A DNA stretch of 24,676 nt from a virus: the IMG/VR virus record IMGVR_UViG_3300005581_000125, positions 1-24,676 of that record; one strand, 5' to 3'. This document shows, piece after piece, positions 15,485-24,574 of the stretch. The translations under genes and the position numbers were made by a program. Below the pieces are notes generated by a model that was given only the letters and a program-made list of their open reading frames with translations, made no database searches and was not told the origin of the DNA. Numbering within the stretch: position 1 is the stretch's first letter; each line of letters begins with the position of its first letter.

Positions 15485-16420
15485 TTAGGTGAATACAAGG
15501 GTTAGTTCGTCATTGCCTGCTGCTGTTGGTGTTGCAACATAAGGCAGGTTTAACATTTGGATGCCGTTCATGTCGGCATAGGATGCATCAGCTAGATCTG
15601 ATTGAGCCATTGTAAGCGTTGCTATGTTACCAGCAGTAGTGCCATGCTGAACTGTAATGCTACCGGTAGTTGAGCCGGTGCTAACGGTAAAGTAGTTTTT
15701 AGCGGCCAGCAATACTGCTTCAATCTGCAATGTGCCCCCAGGCTTGCGGTCAGTAATGATAACTTCTTTAGTGCCGCCTACCAACTCACGATAAATAATC
15801 TCATTGGCAATATTGAAATCAATTGATTGCAATGCGCCGGAATAACTAAATGCAGAAAAGCTAGTGGTATTACCATTTTTAAATATTAGTGGTGTTGCTT
15901 GGTTTGCATATGTTGGTGCAGCAAGTGCCGTATCAGTTGGTGCGTTAAATACACCTGTCATTGTAAATGCAATTGTTGGTATTGCGCCTACAGTGCCGTT
16001 AAGGGTAAATGTACCGCGAGCGCCAGTTACAACATGGCGGATGCCGTCTTGGAAAAAGTATAAAGTAACAGAACTAAAGCTGGCGCTAACAGGCGCATAA
16101 GTAGCACTTGTGCTTGCTGCTAAAGTTTCAGATAACCCACATGCTTTTAACACAGGACCATATGCTGGTGCTGTGCCTGCTGTGCCCGAACCAGCAAGCT
16201 CAACTTCAAAAGTTACCTGCACGCGGGTATTTGCTAATAACTGATCGTAATTACCAAGATATGGCCGGATTAATTCACGCTGCACAATATCAGACTGCAA
16301 CGGCACAATTTCTAAATTGCGCACCAATATGGCATTAGCGGCTCCTGTTGGTGTCGGGTCAGTGCCGTAGGTAACTTCAGCCTTGGCTAGAAGTAGCCTT
16401 TTGCGTGTCAGTAATGGCAT
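15485..16420 (-). CDS. V: Major tail (tube) protein
   Basis: This 311-aa protein forms the tail tube. It starts LLTRKRLLLAKAEVTYGTDP, the conserved opening of a large family of siphophage tube proteins, with LEIVPLQSDIVQRELIRPYL, ANTRVQVTFEVELAGSGTAG and APAYGPVLKACGL following. The middle has beta-strand repeats (TGARGTFTLNGTVGAIPTIA), and the C-terminus is TPTAAGNDELTLVFT. I see no appended Ig-like decoration domain such as that on lambda V. It lies directly before G/G-T and after the tail terminator, the expected place. The start overlaps the end of the preceding 57-aa ORF by 44 nt, which suggests coupling; no strong Shine-Dalgarno is present. Confidence 0.92.
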   Translation of the reverse strand: MPLLTRKRLLLAKAEVTYGTDPTPTGAANAILVRNLEIVPLQSDIVQRELIRPYLGNYDQLLANTRVQVTFEVELAGSGTAGTAPAYGPVLKACGLSETLAASTSATYAPVSASFSSVTLYFFQDGIRHVVTGARGTFTLNGTVGAIPTIAFTMTGVFNAPTDTALAAPTYANQATPLIFKNGNTTSFSAFSYSGALQSIDFNIANEIIYRELVGGTKEVIITDRKPGGTLQIEAVLLAAKNYFTVSTGSTTGSITVQHGTTAGNIATLTMAQSDLADASYADMNGIQMLNLPYVATPTAAGNDELTLVFT

Positions 16421-16552: not shown

Positions 16553-16978
16553 TTAGCTTGCAAGGTTACTAACCGATGTGCGGTATTGCACTCGGTAATC
16601 GCACATCACAACCCCAGCAGGTTGATCTGCTTCGACTATATCAAATGTAACCGCAATTGGTTGAATGTCAATTGCATAGCCGCCAAGCGTCAGGTCGGCC
16701 ATTAACTTGCTATGCATATCCTGCACTGTTGCATCTGCCGCTTGGTCTGGTATCGCGCCGCGTACAATCACCGCTATACGTACTGTAAGGCTCCAATCCA
16801 ACGTTGGCAGGCTTGTGTTTTGCGCTGCCGTATCGGTAAGCGGTTCAACGACAATTGCAGGTGATTCGCCGCGTGTTAATGGTTCTACCCTGCTACGATA
16901 AATTCTATTGCTAACGCCTGTGGTGCCTGTCAATGCTGTGCGTATTGCAGCAATAATTGTCTCGCGTTTGGTTGTCAT
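16553..16978 (-). CDS. U: Tail terminator protein, lambda U-like
   Basis: This 141-aa protein has the length and layout of lambda U (131 aa): an N-terminal helix (RETIIAAIRTALTG), strands around YRSRVEPLTRGESPAIVVEP, a central strand LDWSLTVRIAVIVRG, a helix VQDMHSKLMADLT, then LGGYAIDIQPIAVTFDIVEA and the closing strand VVMCDYRVQYRTS. U-type terminators form a hexameric ring that ends tube growth and joins the tail to the head. It lies two bases after the neck adhesin-like gene and before the tube gene, as expected for U. Confidence 0.85.
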   Translation of the reverse strand: MTTKRETIIAAIRTALTGTTGVSNRIYRSRVEPLTRGESPAIVVEPLTDTAAQNTSLPTLDWSLTVRIAVIVRGAIPDQAADATVQDMHSKLMADLTLGGYAIDIQPIAVTFDIVEADQPAGVVMCDYRVQYRTSVSNLAS

Positions 16979-16980
16979 GA

Positions 16981-17607
16981 TTAAGCGGATGCAACTTGCA
17001 CTATGGTACAGATAATTCCGGGAATACTTGGATGCGCGAATGAGCTGGTCTGTGCTACCTCAGCATGGATATAAGCACTGGCATTGCTGGTAGCCCAAAT
17101 CAATTCAAGATAGTCAGCAGCAGCAAGCTTTAATACAAAATTAACCGTGCCGATTACATTGCCATCAACTCCGCCATGACTAGACGTAATACTAAATCTG
17201 CTATCAGATGCAACAACATTAGTACCATTTCTGCGTAACCATACATTTATATCATGTATTGACGTATCGCTATTTGTAAACTGTATTGAAAATGTAATGC
17301 TATAAACGCCAGCATAGGCAAATGTAATCGTTGTATTTGACGCAATACTGATGCCACTATTATCTAAATCAGCACTACGCAATAAAATTGTAGTTGGTGT
17401 ATTTGCTACTGCGGTTTGTGATGTTAAATCCCAAAACGATGCCCAATAACCTGGGCAGCCGAAATATGGCAACTTATTCCAATTGGTAAGGCCATCGCCT
17501 ATTTTTAAAGCTGCTGTGTCTGATTCCTGCCCTAGCTCACCATGTAATAATTTTGGGTCAGATCCCGCCCAATCATTACGCTTAGCAACACGGATAGGAG
17601 CAGTCAT
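16981..17607 (-). CDS. Neck-region protein with Mtd-like N-terminus and C1q-like domain
   Basis: This 208-aa protein has two parts. Residues about 4-50 (RVAKRNDWAGSDPKLLHGEL, then DTAALKIGDGLTNWNKLPYF) match the beta-prism bead found at the N-terminus of major tropism determinant and many phage adhesins (GELG...DT..LKIGDG.T.W..LPY). Residues about 58-205 resemble a C1q/TNF-like jelly roll (TFAYAGVYSITFSIQFTNSD, INVWLRRNGTNVVASDSRFS, NFVLKLAAADYLELIWATSN). Such proteins are usually trimeric surface or fibre proteins. In lambda this slot, between FII and U, holds the tail completion protein Z; nothing here looks like Z. It overlaps the FII-like gene by ATGA and precedes the U-like gene by 2 nt, so it belongs to the neck module. 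A neck whisker or head/neck decoration is the best reading; fold calls are by pattern only. Confidence 0.75.
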   Translation of the reverse strand: MTAPIRVAKRNDWAGSDPKLLHGELGQESDTAALKIGDGLTNWNKLPYFGCPGYWASFWDLTSQTAVANTPTTILLRSADLDNSGISIASNTTITFAYAGVYSITFSIQFTNSDTSIHDINVWLRRNGTNVVASDSRFSITSSHGGVDGNVIGTVNFVLKLAAADYLELIWATSNASAYIHAEVAQTSSFAHPSIPGIICTIVQVASA

Positions 17608-17882
17608 GTTTTCTGCAATGCAATTTCAACAAAAGAACCATCGTCTATTAACCTAGTCTCGCGCACGGTATAAGCAACAGATGCAACTGTAATAGCATCA
17701 CCATATACTAAATTACCAAAATCAGATGCACGTGCCGTCAACATATAATCAGTGCTTAATACCATATCATTTGCAATGATTTGTGATGGCATGTCAAGAA
17801 TACCTAAACCGGTAACGGCGCCAGCAATACAACTGACGCCGAAATCGTTTAGAAAACCAAGCAGGTTTTCAGTTATCGCCAT
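17604..17882 (-). CDS. Head-tail joining protein, lambda FII-like
   Basis: This 92-aa protein has an N-terminal helix with ENLLGFLNDFGVSCIAGAVT and a beta-rich second half (FGNLVYGDAITVASVAYTVR, RLIDDGSFVEIALQKT). The motif of a Gly-Asp turn, a strand reading 'V...Y.VRE.' and a final 'DG...I.L' strand is typical of FII-family proteins, which form the ring on the head to which the tail attaches. Lambda FII is 117 aa. Order after the capsid and small head genes and before the terminator fits. It begins in a TAATG overlap with the preceding gene and overlaps the next by ATGA. Confidence 0.8.
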   Translation of the reverse strand: MAITENLLGFLNDFGVSCIAGAVTGLGILDMPSQIIANDMVLSTDYMLTARASDFGNLVYGDAITVASVAYTVRETRLIDDGSFVEIALQKT

Positions 17883-18256
17883 TAGCCGTACTTCTTAAGG
17901 CCGTAACCAACACAAGTAACGGAGCTAGATGCAGCGCCGGTTTCAGCAGTACAGCTCAACCGTACATAACGCTTTAATGCGTCACGGTTTAATGTAAGCA
18001 CTTCTTTATACGCAGCATTAGCAATAGCAGTAAATGAGCCACCTGTAGCTGCTGTATAAGTGCTGTTATCATCTGATTCTTCAATGCGGAAGGTCAGATC
18101 AGTACTAGCACCAGCGGCAGTGCCAAGCAAAATTACTTGGATGTCGCCGTCATAATCTTTAAGATCAACGCCAGTCTGGTTGCCTGTAGCTGTAATAGTG
18201 GTCGTAGCTAAAAGCGTAAAATGCTCTAGCTTTTCAAGTGTCTGTTGGAATAACAT
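17882..18256 (-). CDS. Head protein, possible capsid decoration or completion protein
   Basis: This 124-aa protein is beta-rich: ATTTITATGNQTGVDLKDYD, GDIQVILLGTAAGASTDLTF, RIEESDDNSTYTAATGGSFT, VLTLNRDALKRYVRLSCTAE. The pattern 'tG..VDL..Y.G...vIL...AG.ST.LtfkieES.D...yt' and 'L+RYVR' is common in small phage proteins encoded just after the major capsid gene. They are usually annotated as head or decoration proteins, but I know of no firm functional proof. Start choice is supported by GGAG at 18265-18268, 8 nt before the ATG. The gene overlaps the upstream ORF by 23 nt and the downstream one by 1 nt (TAATG). Confidence 0.75.
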   Translation of the reverse strand: MLFQQTLEKLEHFTLLATTTITATGNQTGVDLKDYDGDIQVILLGTAAGASTDLTFRIEESDDNSTYTAATGGSFTAIANAAYKEVLTLNRDALKRYVRLSCTAETGAASSSVTCVGYGLKKYG

Positions 18257-18434
18257 TGCGGGTTCTCCGTTTGGGTGGTTGGGGATCTGGTTCTGGATCT
18301 ACAGCAATCGTAGCTGTAATTGCTTTGCCAATACCAATTAATAATTGAGCATCAGCATTGCTTGCCTCAACGGTGGAGCCAGCCCTTACGAGCTGGCCGC
18401 CTACCATCGTGGTCTTAGTGACCTCGATTAACAT
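18234..18434 (-). CDS. Small conserved head-module protein (66 aa)
   Basis: The N-terminal 45 residues (IEVTKTTMVGGQLVRAGSTV, then EASNADAQLLIGIGKA) follow a pattern very common in short phage proteins next to the capsid gene: a strand, 'G..v..G..v..s..dA..L...GkA'. The tail is a Pro/Arg linker (DPEPDPQPPKRRTRNV). It starts in a TGATG overlap with the capsid gene stop. Possible roles are head stabilisation or an FI-like accessory function; neither is proven for the family. Confidence 0.75.
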   Translation of the reverse strand: MLIEVTKTTMVGGQLVRAGSTVEASNADAQLLIGIGKAITATIAVDPEPDPQPPKRRTRNVIPTDT

Positions 18435-20179
18435 CAGAGCGTATCAGCGCCGCGACAGAAGCCTTCAGGATGGCGAACAGCAAAGTCCACATCTTGTAGT
18501 GCTACCACACGTACAGTGCCGCTTGTGCTATGGGTGTAAGGATCAACAGTTAGATCCAACCCAGACCACATGCCCATGATCAATTGAGACCACACAGCAA
18601 AGAAAACATCGCCGGTAGCTACTTGGTTGCTAACAGCAGCGTTATAACCGTTAACAGTGCCGCCTGGTTCAAAAATAAACTGTGCGGTGTTTGTTGCTTT
18701 TTCTGCGGTCTTCAGTGATCCACGCATTGATGCATTCATCAAATACGACATGGCGCCAATGTCTGCGTTGTCAGCAGCAATTGCACTTTCCATGCTTACC
18801 ACTTCAGCATATGTAGGCACTGCACCGGCAAAGTTAACTGTATTGATGCCAGTTGTTAGCTTGATGCCTAAAGGCTGGTTGGTATTACCCAAACCATACA
18901 AACCAACGCGGTCAATCTCAAGTGCCAATACAGTAGCTAGATCCTGACGGATCATTTGCTCTACATCAATGCTGGATTGCAGCATCAACTTACGGCTGTA
19001 ATCAGTAAATGCACCACATGTCTTAGGTGACATGTTGACTTGATCAACAGTTTGGTTGCTTTCAGTAGGTGCGCCAGACTCAGCTACCCAGTAAGCAGTA
19101 GCAGCACCAGTTTGACGTGGAATTGCAACGTTACCGCTAAGGCCGGTTAATGATGCAACGCCAAGGCCAGCTAATGCTGAACGGTTGCGCAACAGCTCAA
19201 TAAAGCTGCCGGGGCGAAAATCAACGCCAACCAGGTTGCCAGCAGCAGACGCAGTGCCTACTACCAAGTCGCGACGCAATACATCATTAGGCACCATGAT
19301 GCCTTGTGCTGTTTTGCCTGCTTTAGCAGCAGCAGCATCAGAACACTCGCGTTCAAATGCAGCAGCTTCTTGCATCCGGCGATCACTAGGATTAGCCAAT
19401 GCATTGATCGCACGCTGGAAAGAAAACTCACGGCTTTCTTTTGCAGTAAGGCCGATGTCAGCAGCTTTTTCAGCTACTGGCTCTACCTTGGCGCCGATCT
19501 TATCTAGTACAGCAGCACGGGCTTCATCTAGGCTGCGGCCACTATCAATAAGTTGCCGAGCAGTGTCAGCCATGTTGTGCTTGTCGCATAATGCGGTGAT
19601 TGCGGAAATCCGGCTGCGTTCGGCTTTAGTAGCCTCCTGCACCGCCGCAACGTCAGGCGTGTTGTCCATAATCTCCATGGTTTGAGGTTGTTGTTGTGGT
19701 TGAACGTCGAGCGAACGCCCAACGCCGACCGTTGGGTCTGCTGGTATGCTAACAACACTTATCTCATGTGCATTCCAATTGGTAGCAACAAAGCTATCTT
19801 CGCGATGTTCCATTTCGTTTATTTGATAGCCAAATGATACATTACGCAGCACTTTATCTTTTACATCACGCAATACCTCTTGCGCAAATGGATTTTGGCT
19901 AAACCGCACTGACACATACCCACGGCGGTCTTCATCATTAATCCAACCGCGCTCTACTACACCAATAACGCGATCTGGGTCATGGTTAAACAATAACGGT
20001 GCGCCATCATTTAAACGGCTTAGGTCAGCAGCGCCTGCATCATGGCTCAACACTTCATTGCCAAAATAGCGTGATACCGGATATTCAGAGCTAAATGGAA
20101 ATTCCATTGTCCGCTCGTCATCAGCTAAAGCAAAAGTTGCTGGCTGTGACCTGATCATCATTTCGTTGTCGTTAGTCAT
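18434..20179 (-). CDS. HK97-type prohead protease fused to major capsid protein
   Basis: This single 581-aa ORF contains two head proteins. Residues about 10-157 are an S78-type prohead protease: H66 (LLFNHDPDRVIG), S115 (VLRNVSFGYQI) and E139 (NAHEISVVSIPADP), close to H65/S114/E148 of HK97 gp4. Residues about 165-285 are helical and charged (AVQEATKAERSRISAITALC), like the scaffolding delta domain. Residues about 295-581 are the HK97-fold capsid protein (GNVAIPRQTGAATAYWVAES, SRKLMLQSSIDVEQMIRQDL, GNTNQPLGI). The protease presumably removes the delta region and itself during maturation. The ORF is open to 20236, but I prefer ATG 20179: GAGGA at 20188-20192 is 8 nt upstream, and residues before it are portal-shadow sequence. 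I see no internal start with a ribosome site ahead of the capsid part. Confidence 0.92.
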   Translation of the reverse strand: MTNDNEMMIRSQPATFALADDERTMEFPFSSEYPVSRYFGNEVLSHDAGAADLSRLNDGAPLLFNHDPDRVIGVVERGWINDEDRRGYVSVRFSQNPFAQEVLRDVKDKVLRNVSFGYQINEMEHREDSFVATNWNAHEISVVSIPADPTVGVGRSLDVQPQQQPQTMEIMDNTPDVAAVQEATKAERSRISAITALCDKHNMADTARQLIDSGRSLDEARAAVLDKIGAKVEPVAEKAADIGLTAKESREFSFQRAINALANPSDRRMQEAAAFERECSDAAAAKAGKTAQGIMVPNDVLRRDLVVGTASAAGNLVGVDFRPGSFIELLRNRSALAGLGVASLTGLSGNVAIPRQTGAATAYWVAESGAPTESNQTVDQVNMSPKTCGAFTDYSRKLMLQSSIDVEQMIRQDLATVLALEIDRVGLYGLGNTNQPLGIKLTTGINTVNFAGAVPTYAEVVSMESAIAADNADIGAMSYLMNASMRGSLKTAEKATNTAQFIFEPGGTVNGYNAAVSNQVATGDVFFAVWSQLIMGMWSGLDLTVDPYTHSTSGTVRVVALQDVDFAVRHPEGFCRGADTL

Positions 20180-21683
20180 CGGAGTCATCCTCATCGGGTG
20201 GGGCGGTAGGCGGCACCTGGATGGCACCATCATCATCTACCTGTGTTGGGTCTGTATCAACCACAATACCCATTTCAGCTAATTTTTGCAGCTCCGCTTG
20301 ACGTTGCAACAATAGCTCATCTAAGTCACCGCCTTGCTCAGCCACAATTTGGCCTAGTGTTTTAAAGCCACACCTAACCGCATCCTTATACGCTGATACC
20401 TCTTTTACTGGATCAACCCATGCCCAGCCGCGTGGCATCCACCTAGCCATTTTAAATCTATTAGGTGCTTGCTCATAGCCTTGCAGTGATAAGGCCCCGC
20501 TTAATACCGCCATATCCATCCATATATCAAAAATACGCTGGTGGAAATTTTTGATCATCCAATCTTGTAAAATCCGCCAGTGGTCACGATCTTCTAGCAA
20601 GCTCAATCGGCTAGAGCTGTAGTTAGTTTGGCTAAAATCACGGCTTACCGTTTCATAGCTACAGCCAATACCAGCCGCCATTGCGCGTAACATTGCACGT
20701 AAAAATGGCTCAAACTGTCCATCTGGTGCATCTAGCTGCGGCACCGTTACAGTTTCACCCGGTTGCAAATACTTAAATACACCTGGTTCAAACTGGCTAA
20801 CACGGTCGCCATCCATTACATCATCACCTTGCAGCTCGCCTTCTGGGCTAGTAACAAAACCCATCAAGCTGCTAGCTGCACGCGCACGGATTACTTCCGC
20901 CTCCTCATAGCCTTGCAAATGATGCAACCGCTGGATAGCAGATGCAAACCACGTAGCACCACGTGTTTGGCCCGGGCGGTCCATGCGGTACAAATGGATT
21001 ACATCAGCCGCTAATACACGGTTATGACGTTGTGATGAAATCTGTTGGTTACTAAACTGATAGTCACCAGGATGATAAGCCAAAAAGTGATAAGCAATCG
21101 GACGGCCCCAGCGGTCAACCTCAACGCCCATCCGTATCTCATTACCCTGCAAGCTACGGCCATTAAGGCCATCATCTAATTGATCAGCTTCTATTATCTC
21201 AAGCGCTAATGGTATTGGTGAACCGCTAAATGATTGCTTTACTAGCCGCACAAATACTTCACCGCTTTCTGCAATACTACGAATAAGTAACCTTTCAATA
21301 TCACTAAAGCACAACTTACCGCCAGTATGGCAATACTCTGCATATGACCATTGATGCCACAATGATTCAATTGCATCATTGATAGGTTGATCTAATTTAT
21401 TGCCACGCAGCATCCGCACTTGTGACTGAAACGGTATGCCCTGACCAATTACATTACCTTCAATAGCACGTAATGCCTGCCTTGCGTAATCATTGTCACG
21501 GCATAATTGCCTAGCGCGATCACGTAGCTTTTGTGCTGAGCCATATACTTCACTATCAGCGCTTGTATTACCAGTTACCCAGTCAGCAGTAAGACGGCTA
21601 AATTTAGCGCCTTGATACATTCGCCGCCGTGGCTTTGTAGCGCCACTTTGCAACCAGCTAAAAATTGTAGAACGGATGCCCAT
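20172..21683 (-). CDS. B: Portal protein, lambda B-type
   Basis: This 503-aa protein forms the dodecameric portal at one head vertex, through which DNA is packaged and ejected. Family landmarks are clear: SEVYGSAQKLRDRARQLCRD near residue 45, NDYARQALRAIEGNVIGQGI, a RSIAESGEVFVRLV stretch, LALEIIEADQLDDGLNG, VIHLYRMDRPGQTRGATWFA, and GIGCSYETVSRDFSQTNYSS followed by SRLSLLEDRDHWRILQDWMI. The C-terminus is acidic (PPTAPPDEDDSDD), common for lambda-type portals (lambda B is 533 aa). The start is in a TAATG overlap with the gpW-like gene, and the last 8 nt overlap the chosen start of the protease-capsid gene. Confidence 0.95.
   Translation of the reverse strand: MGIRSTIFSWLQSGATKPRRRMYQGAKFSRLTADWVTGNTSADSEVYGSAQKLRDRARQLCRDNDYARQALRAIEGNVIGQGIPFQSQVRMLRGNKLDQPINDAIESLWHQWSYAEYCHTGGKLCFSDIERLLIRSIAESGEVFVRLVKQSFSGSPIPLALEIIEADQLDDGLNGRSLQGNEIRMGVEVDRWGRPIAYHFLAYHPGDYQFSNQQISSQRHNRVLAADVIHLYRMDRPGQTRGATWFASAIQRLHHLQGYEEAEVIRARAASSLMGFVTSPEGELQGDDVMDGDRVSQFEPGVFKYLQPGETVTVPQLDAPDGQFEPFLRAMLRAMAAGIGCSYETVSRDFSQTNYSSSRLSLLEDRDHWRILQDWMIKNFHQRIFDIWMDMAVLSGALSLQGYEQAPNRFKMARWMPRGWAWVDPVKEVSAYKDAVRCGFKTLGQIVAEQGGDLDELLLQRQAELQKLAEMGIVVDTDPTQVDDDGAIQVPPTAPPDEDDSDD
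20188..20192 (-). promoter_or_regulatory. Ribosome binding site that decides the protease-capsid start
   Basis: GAGGA on the minus strand lies 8 nt before ATG 20179, inside the end of the portal gene. The earlier in-frame ATGs at about 20236-20188 have no such site. Confidence 0.6.
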
Positions 21684-22252
21684 TAGAAACGCACGAATAG
21701 ATTGTGTGGGTTACCCAAGCCTTGCGCTTGGAGTGATGCCGCTTGCTCGCGCTTGACCTCAGCCTTTAGCTTACTTTCAAGTTGGATTAAATCAACCAAA
21801 TCATATTTCTTTAAACTACGTGTGCCGATCCGATATTCCTGCACCACGCCGCCAGATACAATCGCCCTGATCGCAGCCTTTACTGCATCTAGATCAATCT
21901 CCGCTTGGCTGCGGCCATCAAATGCACCAGGTGTGCTGGTATAGCTCAACGCTGCCTGCACTTGCAGTTGCCCAGCGCCTAACGTCAGCTTTTCCGTGCT
22001 ATAAGTCGCAATCGCCTGCCAATACCATTGCCCAGCATCAAAACCAGCACTGGTGCCAGTAGCAATCGTAAATTCCCACCCAGGCCCAAACGCTGTTCCT
22101 ACAACTGTTGCCGCCTCAGCCGCTACATTCGCACGCAAATAATATGTCAACGTCCACGTGGCACTGGTAATAGCATTGCCAAATCCATCCGCCGCCGCAT
22201 CATCACGCCATTTAATGGTGTCTCCTGCCCTAACCTGTGCTGGAATGTTCAC
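21683..22252 (-). CDS. gpW-like head-tail connector with N-terminal beta domain
   Basis: This 189-aa protein lies exactly where lambda W lies, between terminase and portal. Residues about 115-189 match the gpW pattern of helix, beta hairpin, helix: RSQAEIDLDAVKAAIRAIVS, VQEYRIGTRSLKKYDLVDLI, QLESKLKAEVKREQAAS, ending NPHNLFVRF. Lambda W is only 68 aa. Residues 1-105 are an added beta domain (GDTIKWRDDAAADGFGNAIT, TWTLTYYLRA, GFDAGQWYWQAIATYSTEKL, LGAGQLQVQAAL) resembling the BppU-type domain of baseplate proteins. The start is GTG 22252 in a GTGA overlap with the terminase stop. gpW normally closes the portal channel for FII binding; the beta domain could decorate the neck. The C-terminal call is fairly safe, the N-terminal one tentative. 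Confidence 0.8.
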   Translation of the reverse strand: MNIPAQVRAGDTIKWRDDAAADGFGNAITSATWTLTYYLRANVAAEAATVVGTAFGPGWEFTIATGTSAGFDAGQWYWQAIATYSTEKLTLGAGQLQVQAALSYTSTPGAFDGRSQAEIDLDAVKAAIRAIVSGGVVQEYRIGTRSLKKYDLVDLIQLESKLKAEVKREQAASLQAQGLGNPHNLFVRF

Positions 22253-24093
22253 CAGTTACTAACAAAGGGTTTGCTTGATTTTAGCACCGCCTTGGCTTTT
22301 GGCTTGCTTTCTAGCCGCCGCTCTAATTGATCCCATATTGTTCGCCTGTCATATCGCTGATATAACCAGTTCAAACCGGCATACGCATATACCAAGCAAT
22401 CCAACGCTTCATTACGCGCACCGGGTTTCTTTACCCATTCACGTACCGGAAACCCTTTTACATACTTTAACGCCTGCTTCTCTGCTGTTAACTGCTCAAA
22501 ATATTCCGCTGGTGTACCCATATGAAAATGCAATGCCTCGTTATGTTTTAACCGCGCAAACAATGTTGTTTTTATGGTATCACCGCCAACTGGATATACC
22601 AATGCGCCACGTTTTAATTGTTGGCCCTTGCTATTAATGTCAACCTTAGCAGCCTTACCAATTGGCGCTTTACCGCGTTGGCTTTGGCCTTTAATTGCAA
22701 TTACATTTTGCCTGCCGCGTTCTCTTGCATATTGATAAACCTCAGCCGTTGCATGGCCGCCACTATCAACACAAACTGCATCTGGCCTAAACCCACCGCC
22801 ATTAGCATGTGGCCATTCACGTAACAACAACTCATCTAGCTGCTTCCATACATCAGCACGACATGGATCACCAAATATCTCTTGATGATGCACTAGCCAT
22901 CCTTCCTCCTCACGGCCCCACGCCCATACACTAATAGCTAAGCGGTCGCCAATACTGCCGCCGCCACCTTGTACGTCAACACCTACAGTCAATGCCCATG
23001 CATCTGCTGGTATAATGCCAGGTTCATAATGTTCACACTTATCTATTAACCCAGCAGCATCTACCTTACTAGCATAATCTTCTTCCCATGTTTCAGCTAA
23101 TCTAGTATTAACAAAGCTCTTAAGCATTGGTGCATCAGACTTTGCACGTAAAAAGTCGTCAACCATATCAGCCCAACTAAGCCATCCTAATGGTGAGTAC
23201 AAACCCGATAACTGAAAACCAGCCGTCTTACCATCAAATGGTGCCGTAGCTCGCCATTCGCCTTCGCGTAACATCATTGGTTTATGTATATCACTAAATC
23301 TTTCACCGCAATGCTCGCATTCATATTGGGCAGTATTAGGATCATTATTTTCCCATTTAAGTTGTGCCCACTTTAGCCATTCCTTTACGCCACATTTAGG
23401 GCACGGCACATAAAAACGCCGCTGGTCACTACGTAAGTACTCAGCTTCAATACGGCTAAAGTCTTTTACCGTTGGTGTGCTAGTAAGCAAAATCTTACGC
23501 CTAGCAAAAGTAGTAGCACGTTTTTCCGCCAAACTGACAGGATCGCCCTCGCCATCTACATCAGCAGGGAACGCATCAACTTCATCCATAAAAATATAGC
23601 GGCATGGTGTAGACCGCAAACCAGTTGCGCTATTAGCACCAGTAAGCAGCATCATCCCACCTGGGAACTCCTTTGCCAGCATCGTATTACCGCTATCCCT
23701 ACTCCTCGACGGTGCGATCTTATCGTTTAAACAAGGCGTCTCACTAATAAGGGACTCCAGCCTTTGCTTTGATAACCTCTTTGCCATCTCTACCGTAGGT
23801 TGCACTAGCAGCATCGGCCCAGGCGAATGCGCGATCACATAACCCAACCAATTGCTGCCGCTTTCAGTCTTGCCTGTCTGCGCAGCAAACATCATCACCA
23901 CACGTTGGATGCCGCTATTAGTGCTAAGGCAATCCATCGGCTCCTTCAAATACGGCGTCCTATTAGTGCGCCATGGCCCAGGTTCCGCACTTGCCTTACT
24001 GCTAAGCCTTCTGTGAGCATCAGCCCATTCGCTTACCGTTAACACTGGGTCAGGCCGCAACCCATTCATAAATGCCTTTCTATAGATCGTCAT
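22249..24093 (-). CDS. A: Terminase large subunit, GpA type
   Basis: This 614-aa protein is the ATP-driven DNA-packaging motor and nuclease. In 615-residue numbering from GTG 24096, the ATPase has a terminase-type Walker A at about 70-79 (FAAQTGKTES), a Walker B at 168-172 (YIFMDE) and a coupling motif near KILLTSTPT (201-209). A zinc-ribbon-like insert has CPKC at 232-235 and CEHC at 260-263. The nuclease half has D374 (LTVGVDVQGG), D444 (AVCVDSGGHAT) and D566 (ARNEALDCLVYAYAG). Length equals lambda A (641 aa) closely. I chose ATG 24093 over GTG 24096 because GGAG at 24101-24104 then has a 7-nt spacer. It overlaps the small subunit by 14 nt and the gpW-like gene by GTGA. Confidence 0.96.
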   Translation of the reverse strand: MTIYRKAFMNGLRPDPVLTVSEWADAHRRLSSKASAEPGPWRTNRTPYLKEPMDCLSTNSGIQRVVMMFAAQTGKTESGSNWLGYVIAHSPGPMLLVQPTVEMAKRLSKQRLESLISETPCLNDKIAPSRSRDSGNTMLAKEFPGGMMLLTGANSATGLRSTPCRYIFMDEVDAFPADVDGEGDPVSLAEKRATTFARRKILLTSTPTVKDFSRIEAEYLRSDQRRFYVPCPKCGVKEWLKWAQLKWENNDPNTAQYECEHCGERFSDIHKPMMLREGEWRATAPFDGKTAGFQLSGLYSPLGWLSWADMVDDFLRAKSDAPMLKSFVNTRLAETWEEDYASKVDAAGLIDKCEHYEPGIIPADAWALTVGVDVQGGGGSIGDRLAISVWAWGREEEGWLVHHQEIFGDPCRADVWKQLDELLLREWPHANGGGFRPDAVCVDSGGHATAEVYQYARERGRQNVIAIKGQSQRGKAPIGKAAKVDINSKGQQLKRGALVYPVGGDTIKTTLFARLKHNEALHFHMGTPAEYFEQLTAEKQALKYVKGFPVREWVKKPGARNEALDCLVYAYAGLNWLYQRYDRRTIWDQLERRLESKPKAKAVLKSSKPFVSNW

Positions 24094-24574
24094 CACTTAG
24101 CTCCATCAGTGCTGCACGGTGTTCATCACTCAATAACTTATGAATCACAGTTGGGTCAGTCTCACCAGCTAATTGGTGGCTAAGCCTATCAGCCAAATTA
24201 GCTAATGCCTCGCGGATAGTACGGCCAAGCTGAAATGCTTGCTTCTTAATATCTTCTGCTGGCAACAACTCCTTGCGTTGCTGTGAAACCTGTAGTTTTG
24301 CTAATTCTGCTTGGTAATGCTCGCGCCGCTCCCTGCTTATGTTAAGCTCAGGGATTTGATCGTCGCTCAGCTTTACTTCGTCTGGTGCGCTTACCTTTGC
24401 GCTATATGTTCTTAGTGTATTACGATTCCATAACTCTAGTGCCATGTCTCTATCAACGTAGCGTTTGCCATTTTCTTCAACAACTGCTGCGGCAATACGT
24501 GATTTACACGCATGGGTAACTGCTGCTTTTGAGCACCCCTTAATTGCCGCTAATTCTGAAAACGTTATCAACAA
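24080..24574 (-). CDS. Terminase small subunit, Nu1-like
   Basis: This 164-aa protein has a winged-helix DNA-binding domain at residues 1-45 (FSELAAIKGCSKAAVTHACK, ENGKRYVDRDMALELW), then a long charged helix (ERREHYQAELAKLQVSQQRK) and LLPAEDIKKQAFQLGRTIRE, ANLADRLSHQLAGETDP at the C-terminus, which likely assemble the ring and contact the large subunit. Lambda Nu1 is 181 aa with the same order. It should recognise the packaging site, which in lambda-like phages lies just upstream, here within or beyond 24575-24676. The start is TTG 24574 (or TTG 24571); a TAA at 24581-24583 closes the frame, so no earlier start exists. No Shine-Dalgarno is visible. Gene order with the large subunit is canonical. 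Confidence 0.88.
   Translation of the reverse strand: MLITFSELAAIKGCSKAAVTHACKSRIAAAVVEENGKRYVDRDMALELWNRNTLRTYSAKVSAPDEVKLSDDQIPELNISRERREHYQAELAKLQVSQQRKELLPAEDIKKQAFQLGRTIREALANLADRLSHQLAGETDPTVIHKLLSDEHRAALMELSDDDL

Follow-up and report, generated by a model that had tools for sequence, protein, structure and literature searches.

An adhesin-like gene between the head-closure and terminator genes of a lambda-like virus: optional, modular, and putatively at the neck

Introduction

Neck passage structures (NPS, or collar whiskers) are present in about two-thirds of lactococcal 936 phages (PMC6669499), and the neck fibers of TP901-1 are non-essential (PMC4493119). Cyanophage A-1(L) has neck fibers as well; the distal carbohydrate module of these did not bind host cells, nor did the CBD of its short tail fiber when tried alone (PMC10966104). 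In lambda, the position between the head-closure and terminator genes is that of Z, which encodes a tail completion protein (TCP, or Ne1). Published surveys describe the gene as essential and as nearly universal among phages with this type of neck (PMC4362835; PMC11099176); the proteins have two long alpha-helices and a small beta-sheet (PMC11784142).

The window, meaning the whole stretch of DNA analyzed here, is a 24.7-kb virus contig representing a partial genome. A first-pass annotation, made from the letters alone, had noted an adhesin-like gene in what it called the gpZ slot, and had suggested either that the virus carries neck whiskers or decorations, or that an adhesin-like fold has replaced a Z function. 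We compare the locus with its relatives and with these described systems.

Results

The gene and its neighborhood

The coordinates originally given for the gene, 16981–17607, are correct; the ORF is read from the minus strand, beginning with an ATG at 17607 and running to a stop codon ending at 16981, and the plus strand over the same interval is full of stops. The motif HGELGQ..DTAALKIGDGLTNW corresponds to residues 22–43 of the 208-aa product. The gene and its mapped neighbors are:

20172–21683, minus strand: lambda-family portal (PF05136, 3e-106)
18434–20236, minus strand: prohead protease–major capsid fusion, one gene (PF04586 and PF05065; phrog_617)
17882–18256, minus strand: Bbp16-like (cement-type) protein, 124 aa (phrog_5707, 1.3e-30; PF21190, 2e-4, under cut-off)
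17604–17882, minus strand: FII-like head-closure (stopper) gene, 92 aa, without C-terminal extension (PF05354; phrog_24448)
17604–17607, minus strand: ATGA, the 4-base overlap of the FII-like stop and the adhesin start (sequence)
16981–17607, minus strand: subject gene, adhesin-like, bead plus C1q, 208 aa (ORF, Pfam, AF2 model, relatives)
16553–16978, minus strand: U-like tail terminator gene, 141 aa (phrog_4204, 8.6e-39; PF06141, weak)
15485–16420, minus strand: tail tube protein, in the V position (PF18906, 2.9e-18)

The operon is lambda-like and runs leftward, from a terminase (22249–24096) through a 189-aa protein, the portal, the protease–capsid fusion, a 66-aa protein, and the Bbp16-like and FII-like genes to the adhesin-like gene, which is followed by the U-like gene, the tail tube, chaperone-type genes, the tape measure, M, L, K, I, J and the tail-tip fibers. 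The FII-like protein scores above the PF05354 cut-off (28.4 bits against 26), and together with the phrog_4204 match of the U-like protein this bears out the original placement of the gene between FII-like and U-like neighbors.

CATGAC is present at both ends of the gene, so that its gain or loss keeps both starts intact, and exchange may take place at this CATGAC-flanked junction. Against near relatives dN/dS is 0.07–0.16, as expected of a real, constrained gene retained for a function. This value, the translational coupling through the ATGA overlap and the adhesin architecture described below all speak against a neutral or non-virion passenger gene (a moron) without any role in adsorption, and a promoter or terminator of the gene's own, as in a classical moron, was sought without finding anything above shuffled sequence. 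The pattern of presence and absence among relatives and the low G+C around the gene (about 0.39–0.41, against 0.46–0.51 further out) would both suit such a passenger, which we nevertheless regard as highly improbable.

Domains and predicted fold

The beta-prism bead and C1q-like jelly roll of the first-pass annotation were recovered by profile search, the jelly roll again in the predicted structure:

17464–17607, minus strand: N-terminal Mtd_N-type bead, residues 1–48, putative virion anchor (Pfam Mtd_N; distance tracks backbone)
16984–17460, minus strand: C-terminal C1q/TNF-type jelly roll, residues 50–208, putative exposed binding head (BclA_C; structure match)

For the single protein both Pfam matches are below their gathering scores: Mtd_N at residues 12–40 (E 1.4e-4, 22.1 bits against 26.3) and BclA_C, a C1q-type domain, at residues 64–155 (E 5.5e-7, 29.9 bits against 38). 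Among the 39 members of the relatives' alignment (A1), Mtd_N is present in all 39, with a best E of 7.2e-9, and BclA_C in 29. The beads of phage hyaluronidases are also matched by phmmer (6x3m, E 3.5e-5). A single-chain AF2 model from 39 sequences (mean pLDDT 89.7) has one short N-terminal helix, the remainder being beta. By VIA-align, residues ~50–208 are predicted to form a jelly roll of the C1q/TNF kind, with BxpB as top match (Z 17.4, 135 aligned, rmsd 2.2), followed by BclA (Z 16.8) and C1q heads (Z ~14.5). Phage proteins matched include the central spike of phi812 (9eul, Z 15.4), one chain from the portal–tail complex of cyanophage A4 (9k09, Z 14.8) and the CBD of the A-1(L) short tail fiber (8ke9, Z 14.2, 134 residues).

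Occupation of the slot in related viruses

The best 80 relatives of the protein in IMG/VR are all encoded between FII-like and U-like genes, as in the window. A survey of the slot itself covered 142 loci once exact copies were removed, a total made up of the loci found through a U-like protein together with the window and the cultured phages. The slot is empty in 45 of the 142, three of these being cultured phages (roseophages CRP-406 and CRP-811, and Pseudomonas phage KT1). It holds the window's kind of protein (type A) in 40 and a second bead protein (type B, as in S-CBS1 gp10) in 20, or 21 if L170 is included, a further type B variant that has the common bead and a different distal part. 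Fiber cassettes of about 1.8–5 kb occupy 23 loci, a protein of 108–109 aa another 10, and decayed remnants the remaining 3. Two of the remnants (L085, L267) have lost the middle of a type A gene but retain its opening codons and its end; the third (L133) retains the start of the 108-aa type. The intact 108–109 aa protein, which has no Pfam match, is encoded for example at L243:948-1274, L285:5675-6004 and L147:209-538.

Three empty loci (L082, L083, L084) have FII-like proteins 97–98% and U-like proteins 99–100% identical to those of the window, and their FII-like and U-like genes overlap directly by ATGA. In L082 and L084, the window's nearest kin, the flanking DNA is about 97% identical to the window over 1.3–1.5 kb on each side; since kin so similar lack it, the gene appears dispensable, and on this comparative evidence the slot gene is probably non-essential. 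At least 16 changes between empty and filled states are required on the FII+U tree, or 6 if well-supported branches alone are counted. The window and L084 form a natural pair with and without the gene, 97% identical in the surrounding DNA, which opens its role to direct testing.

An assembly artifact was considered as the source of the empty slots and rejected, as these come from many samples and include complete cultured genomes. Insertion by a mobile element was likewise rejected: there is no integrase at the window's site, and the junction falls exactly at the gene boundaries, each marked by CATGAC. In one metagenome (IMG/VR sample 3300028581) the site is found filled, head-swapped and empty (L008, L011, L084), so these states coexist. 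The slot of S-LBS1 (L154:7484-11441; MG271909.1) is taken up by 4.1 kb encoding a bead-less C1q-like protein, a 568-aa tail fiber and an integrase.

Do empty phages encode the protein elsewhere? None of 11 empty contigs (15.9–41 kb, possibly incomplete) encodes a full slot protein at another site; two of the 11 have the bead alone, at the start of a large tail-tip fiber. No prophage copies of the slot protein were found in bacterial genomes, where the terminase has eight distant matches (30–49% identity, Proteobacteria). Judged by the neck genes, the closest cultured relatives are phages of Synechococcus.

The place of Z

These results bear directly on the second of the original proposals. The term "gpZ slot" is apt as far as gene order goes, the gene being located between FII-like and U-like genes; neither homology to gpZ nor a gpZ-like fold was recovered. 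Neither PF06763 (Minor_tail_Z) nor PF04883 (HK97-gp10-like) has a match in the window up to an E of 10, while control genomes do match, and the predicted fold is of the C1q/TNF type, nearly all-beta, where a whole-chain resemblance to gpZ-type proteins would call for the helical TCP fold (PMC11784142). A takeover of the tail completion function by an adhesin-like fold is suggested by gene position only. Near-identical relatives lack both Z and the slot gene, the slot versions of others are in many cases decayed or replaced, and as a general statement the proposal is already refuted by the cultured empty-slot phages CRP-406 and CRP-811. With the fold and the profile results also against it, we consider a takeover extremely unlikely.

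From the sequence comparison, this group of phages seems to need nothing at the place where lambda has Z. No recognizable gpZ/Ne1 gene was found between the head-closure and terminator genes, either in the window or in the empty-slot relatives. The group may be without a TCP, or may encode one elsewhere in an unrecognized form, the window being partial and TCPs strongly divergent. If the former is true, it challenges the need for a TCP in every long-tailed phage of this neck type (PMC4362835; PMC11099176). Annotation by position would miscall the window gene as gpZ.

Exchange of the C1q head

The two domains have had different histories. Distances were compared for 100 type A proteins, thinned to 56: bead distance correlates with backbone distance at r 0.57 and C1q distance at r 0.23, a difference of 0.34 (95% bootstrap 0.25–0.43). 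The bead thus tracks the backbone and the head does so less, the pattern expected of a bead fitted to the particle and an exchangeable head that faces outward. Some pairs combine different beads with near-identical C1q heads; no pair of near-identical beads with different C1q heads was found among type A proteins. When L007 and L011 are aligned to the window, DNA identity is 0.56–0.69 in FII and about 0.5 in the bead, rises to about 0.95 from gene nucleotide ~117–156 to the gene end (the C1q part), and drops to 0.54–0.76 in U. C1q DNA about 95% identical, joined to beads about 50% identical, indicates that heads have been exchanged at the domain boundary. The sequences of type A proteins show a modular anchor with an exchangeable tip, which is a trait of neck whiskers.

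Position on the particle

The product is probably an adhesin of the virion, optional and swappable and most likely mounted at the neck; for the neck location taken separately we would put the chances at a little over half. The neck is favored because the gene is located, and translationally coupled, between two ring-protein genes; because the slot beads are a class distinct from the tail-tip fiber beads of their own genomes; and because the FII-like protein is lengthened in relatives with type B proteins or cassettes in the slot. Slot beads have a mean identity of 0.56 among genomes, against 0.32–0.46 to the tail-tip bead of the same genome. FII-like proteins are 90–96 aa in empty and type A loci, bar two short partial matches, and 111–242 aa with other slot fibers: they are lengthened in all 21 type B loci (L170 included) and in 22 of 23 cassette loci, the remaining one, L206, having a partial FII match only. 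The association of extension with slot fiber reflects few independent events, 2 on well-supported branches, for which an independent-pair test is without power. In L136 the extension carries a fiber-type repeat, 'DVLVYDGTNWVN'. These FII-like tails suggest that the stopper ring serves as a dock, a clue drawn from loci with other occupants, since neither the window nor any of its type A relatives has the extension.

C-terminal tails of this kind, of about 20–150 aa, were observed in L136, L149, L299, L145, L191 and L153–L155, where the slot fibers are other than type A; some contain fiber repeats such as 'LSDLGDVNADSPQAGDVLVYDGTNWVN' and 'LLLEDGSFLLLEDGGYLLLEA'. Separately, a second class of Mtd_N bead, 'RRDTAANWTSANPTLLAGE', is well conserved at the start of the tail-tip fibers of L312:12387-14456, L313:11118-12500, L314:11179-12753, L315 and L316.

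Alternatively, the tail tip or the length of the tube might carry the optional adhesin, with the gene merely located in the neck module. Gene order can mislead in this way, as T5 p143 has this gene position yet was found at the tail tip (PMC11784142). Mtd_N beads do start tail-tip fibers in relatives, and S-CBS1 gp20, a tail-tip-region protein, matches residues 5–120 of the window protein. Still, the slot beads form a class apart from the tip bead of their own genome and FII-like extensions go with the other slot fibers, and we would give a tail-tip or tube mount perhaps one chance in several. Attachment to the head seems less likely again: a capsid decoration (head fiber) could attach to the capsid, or to the Bbp16-like product of the second gene upstream, in an operon that continues from capsid and cement-like genes, and some PHROG families with a related bead are labeled head or virion structural, but the relatives all place the gene after the head-closure gene and beside the terminator gene. 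A putative neck whisker or decoration, the first of the original proposals, thus remains the leading explanation, in keeping with the protein architecture, the gene position, the other slot fibers and the FII-like tails.

Discussion

How might a neck adhesin of this kind work? The overlap of its start with the FII-like stop codon would keep its synthesis in step with that of the neck proteins. The C1q/TNF fold commonly forms trimers, and three chains would probably join through this jelly roll. The N-terminal Mtd_N bead may then anchor the trimer on the virion, most likely on or beside the stopper and terminator rings, leaving the C1q head directed outward, where it could bind a cell-surface or extracellular ligand. 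The role would be one of accessory adsorption or decoration, not the main receptor contact.

A broader possibility, which we put forward tentatively and think somewhat less likely to be right than wrong, is that the stopper–terminator gene boundary of these lambda-like aquatic siphophages acts as a plug-in site where neck adhesins are inserted. The FII-like ring would serve as the dock, sometimes by way of a fiber-type tail; cassettes, single beads or nothing at all would be swapped in and out; C1q heads would be traded at the bead boundary; and the TCP would have been dropped. If true, a widespread group of aquatic siphophages exchanges its host-contact proteins in the neck module as well as at the tail tip, and does so at a precise gene boundary that leaves translational coupling intact.

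Several described proteins resemble the window protein in part. Lambda gpZ and other TCPs (Ne1) are alike in position between head-closure and terminator genes; the window protein differs in having another fold and in being apparently dispensable, and no homology to them was found. There is a close likeness in gene context and architecture to S-CBS1 gp10 and S-CBS3 gp09, each a cyanosiphovirus "tail fiber protein," which occupy the same FII-like/U-like slot and also combine an Mtd_N bead with a C1q-like domain (the predicted fold of the L145 homologue is C1q-like, Z 15.0, pLDDT 67.5). They are only about 25–27% identical to the window protein overall, and the FII-like proteins of S-CBS1 and S-CBS3 have a C-terminal extension of about 48 aa that the window's lacks. 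With Bordetella phage BPP-1 Mtd, the N-terminal bead (Mtd_N) is the sole likeness: the head of Mtd is a variable C-type lectin domain, where the window protein has a C1q head. The A-1(L) short tail fiber CBD (8ke9) has a jelly roll in common with it but, unlike the window protein, is the distal part of a long stemmed tail fiber on a myophage baseplate (PMC10966104).

The lactococcal structures are a parallel in way of working. The NPS and collar whiskers of 936 and P335 phages (such as the TP901-1 NPS) are likewise optional and non-essential; they are associated with the head–neck region and combine a modular anchor with an exchangeable binding module, a scheme that the window protein would probably follow (PMC6669499; PMC4493119). 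NPS proteins are about 500–900 aa, with a BppU-like ring and a helical fiber, against 208 aa of bead and C1q in the window, and the TP901-1 NPS gene follows the baseplate genes, whereas the window gene is inside the FII–U pair. By analogy, then, the window adhesin would work like the known optional neck fibers, while differing from them in size, domains and gene position.
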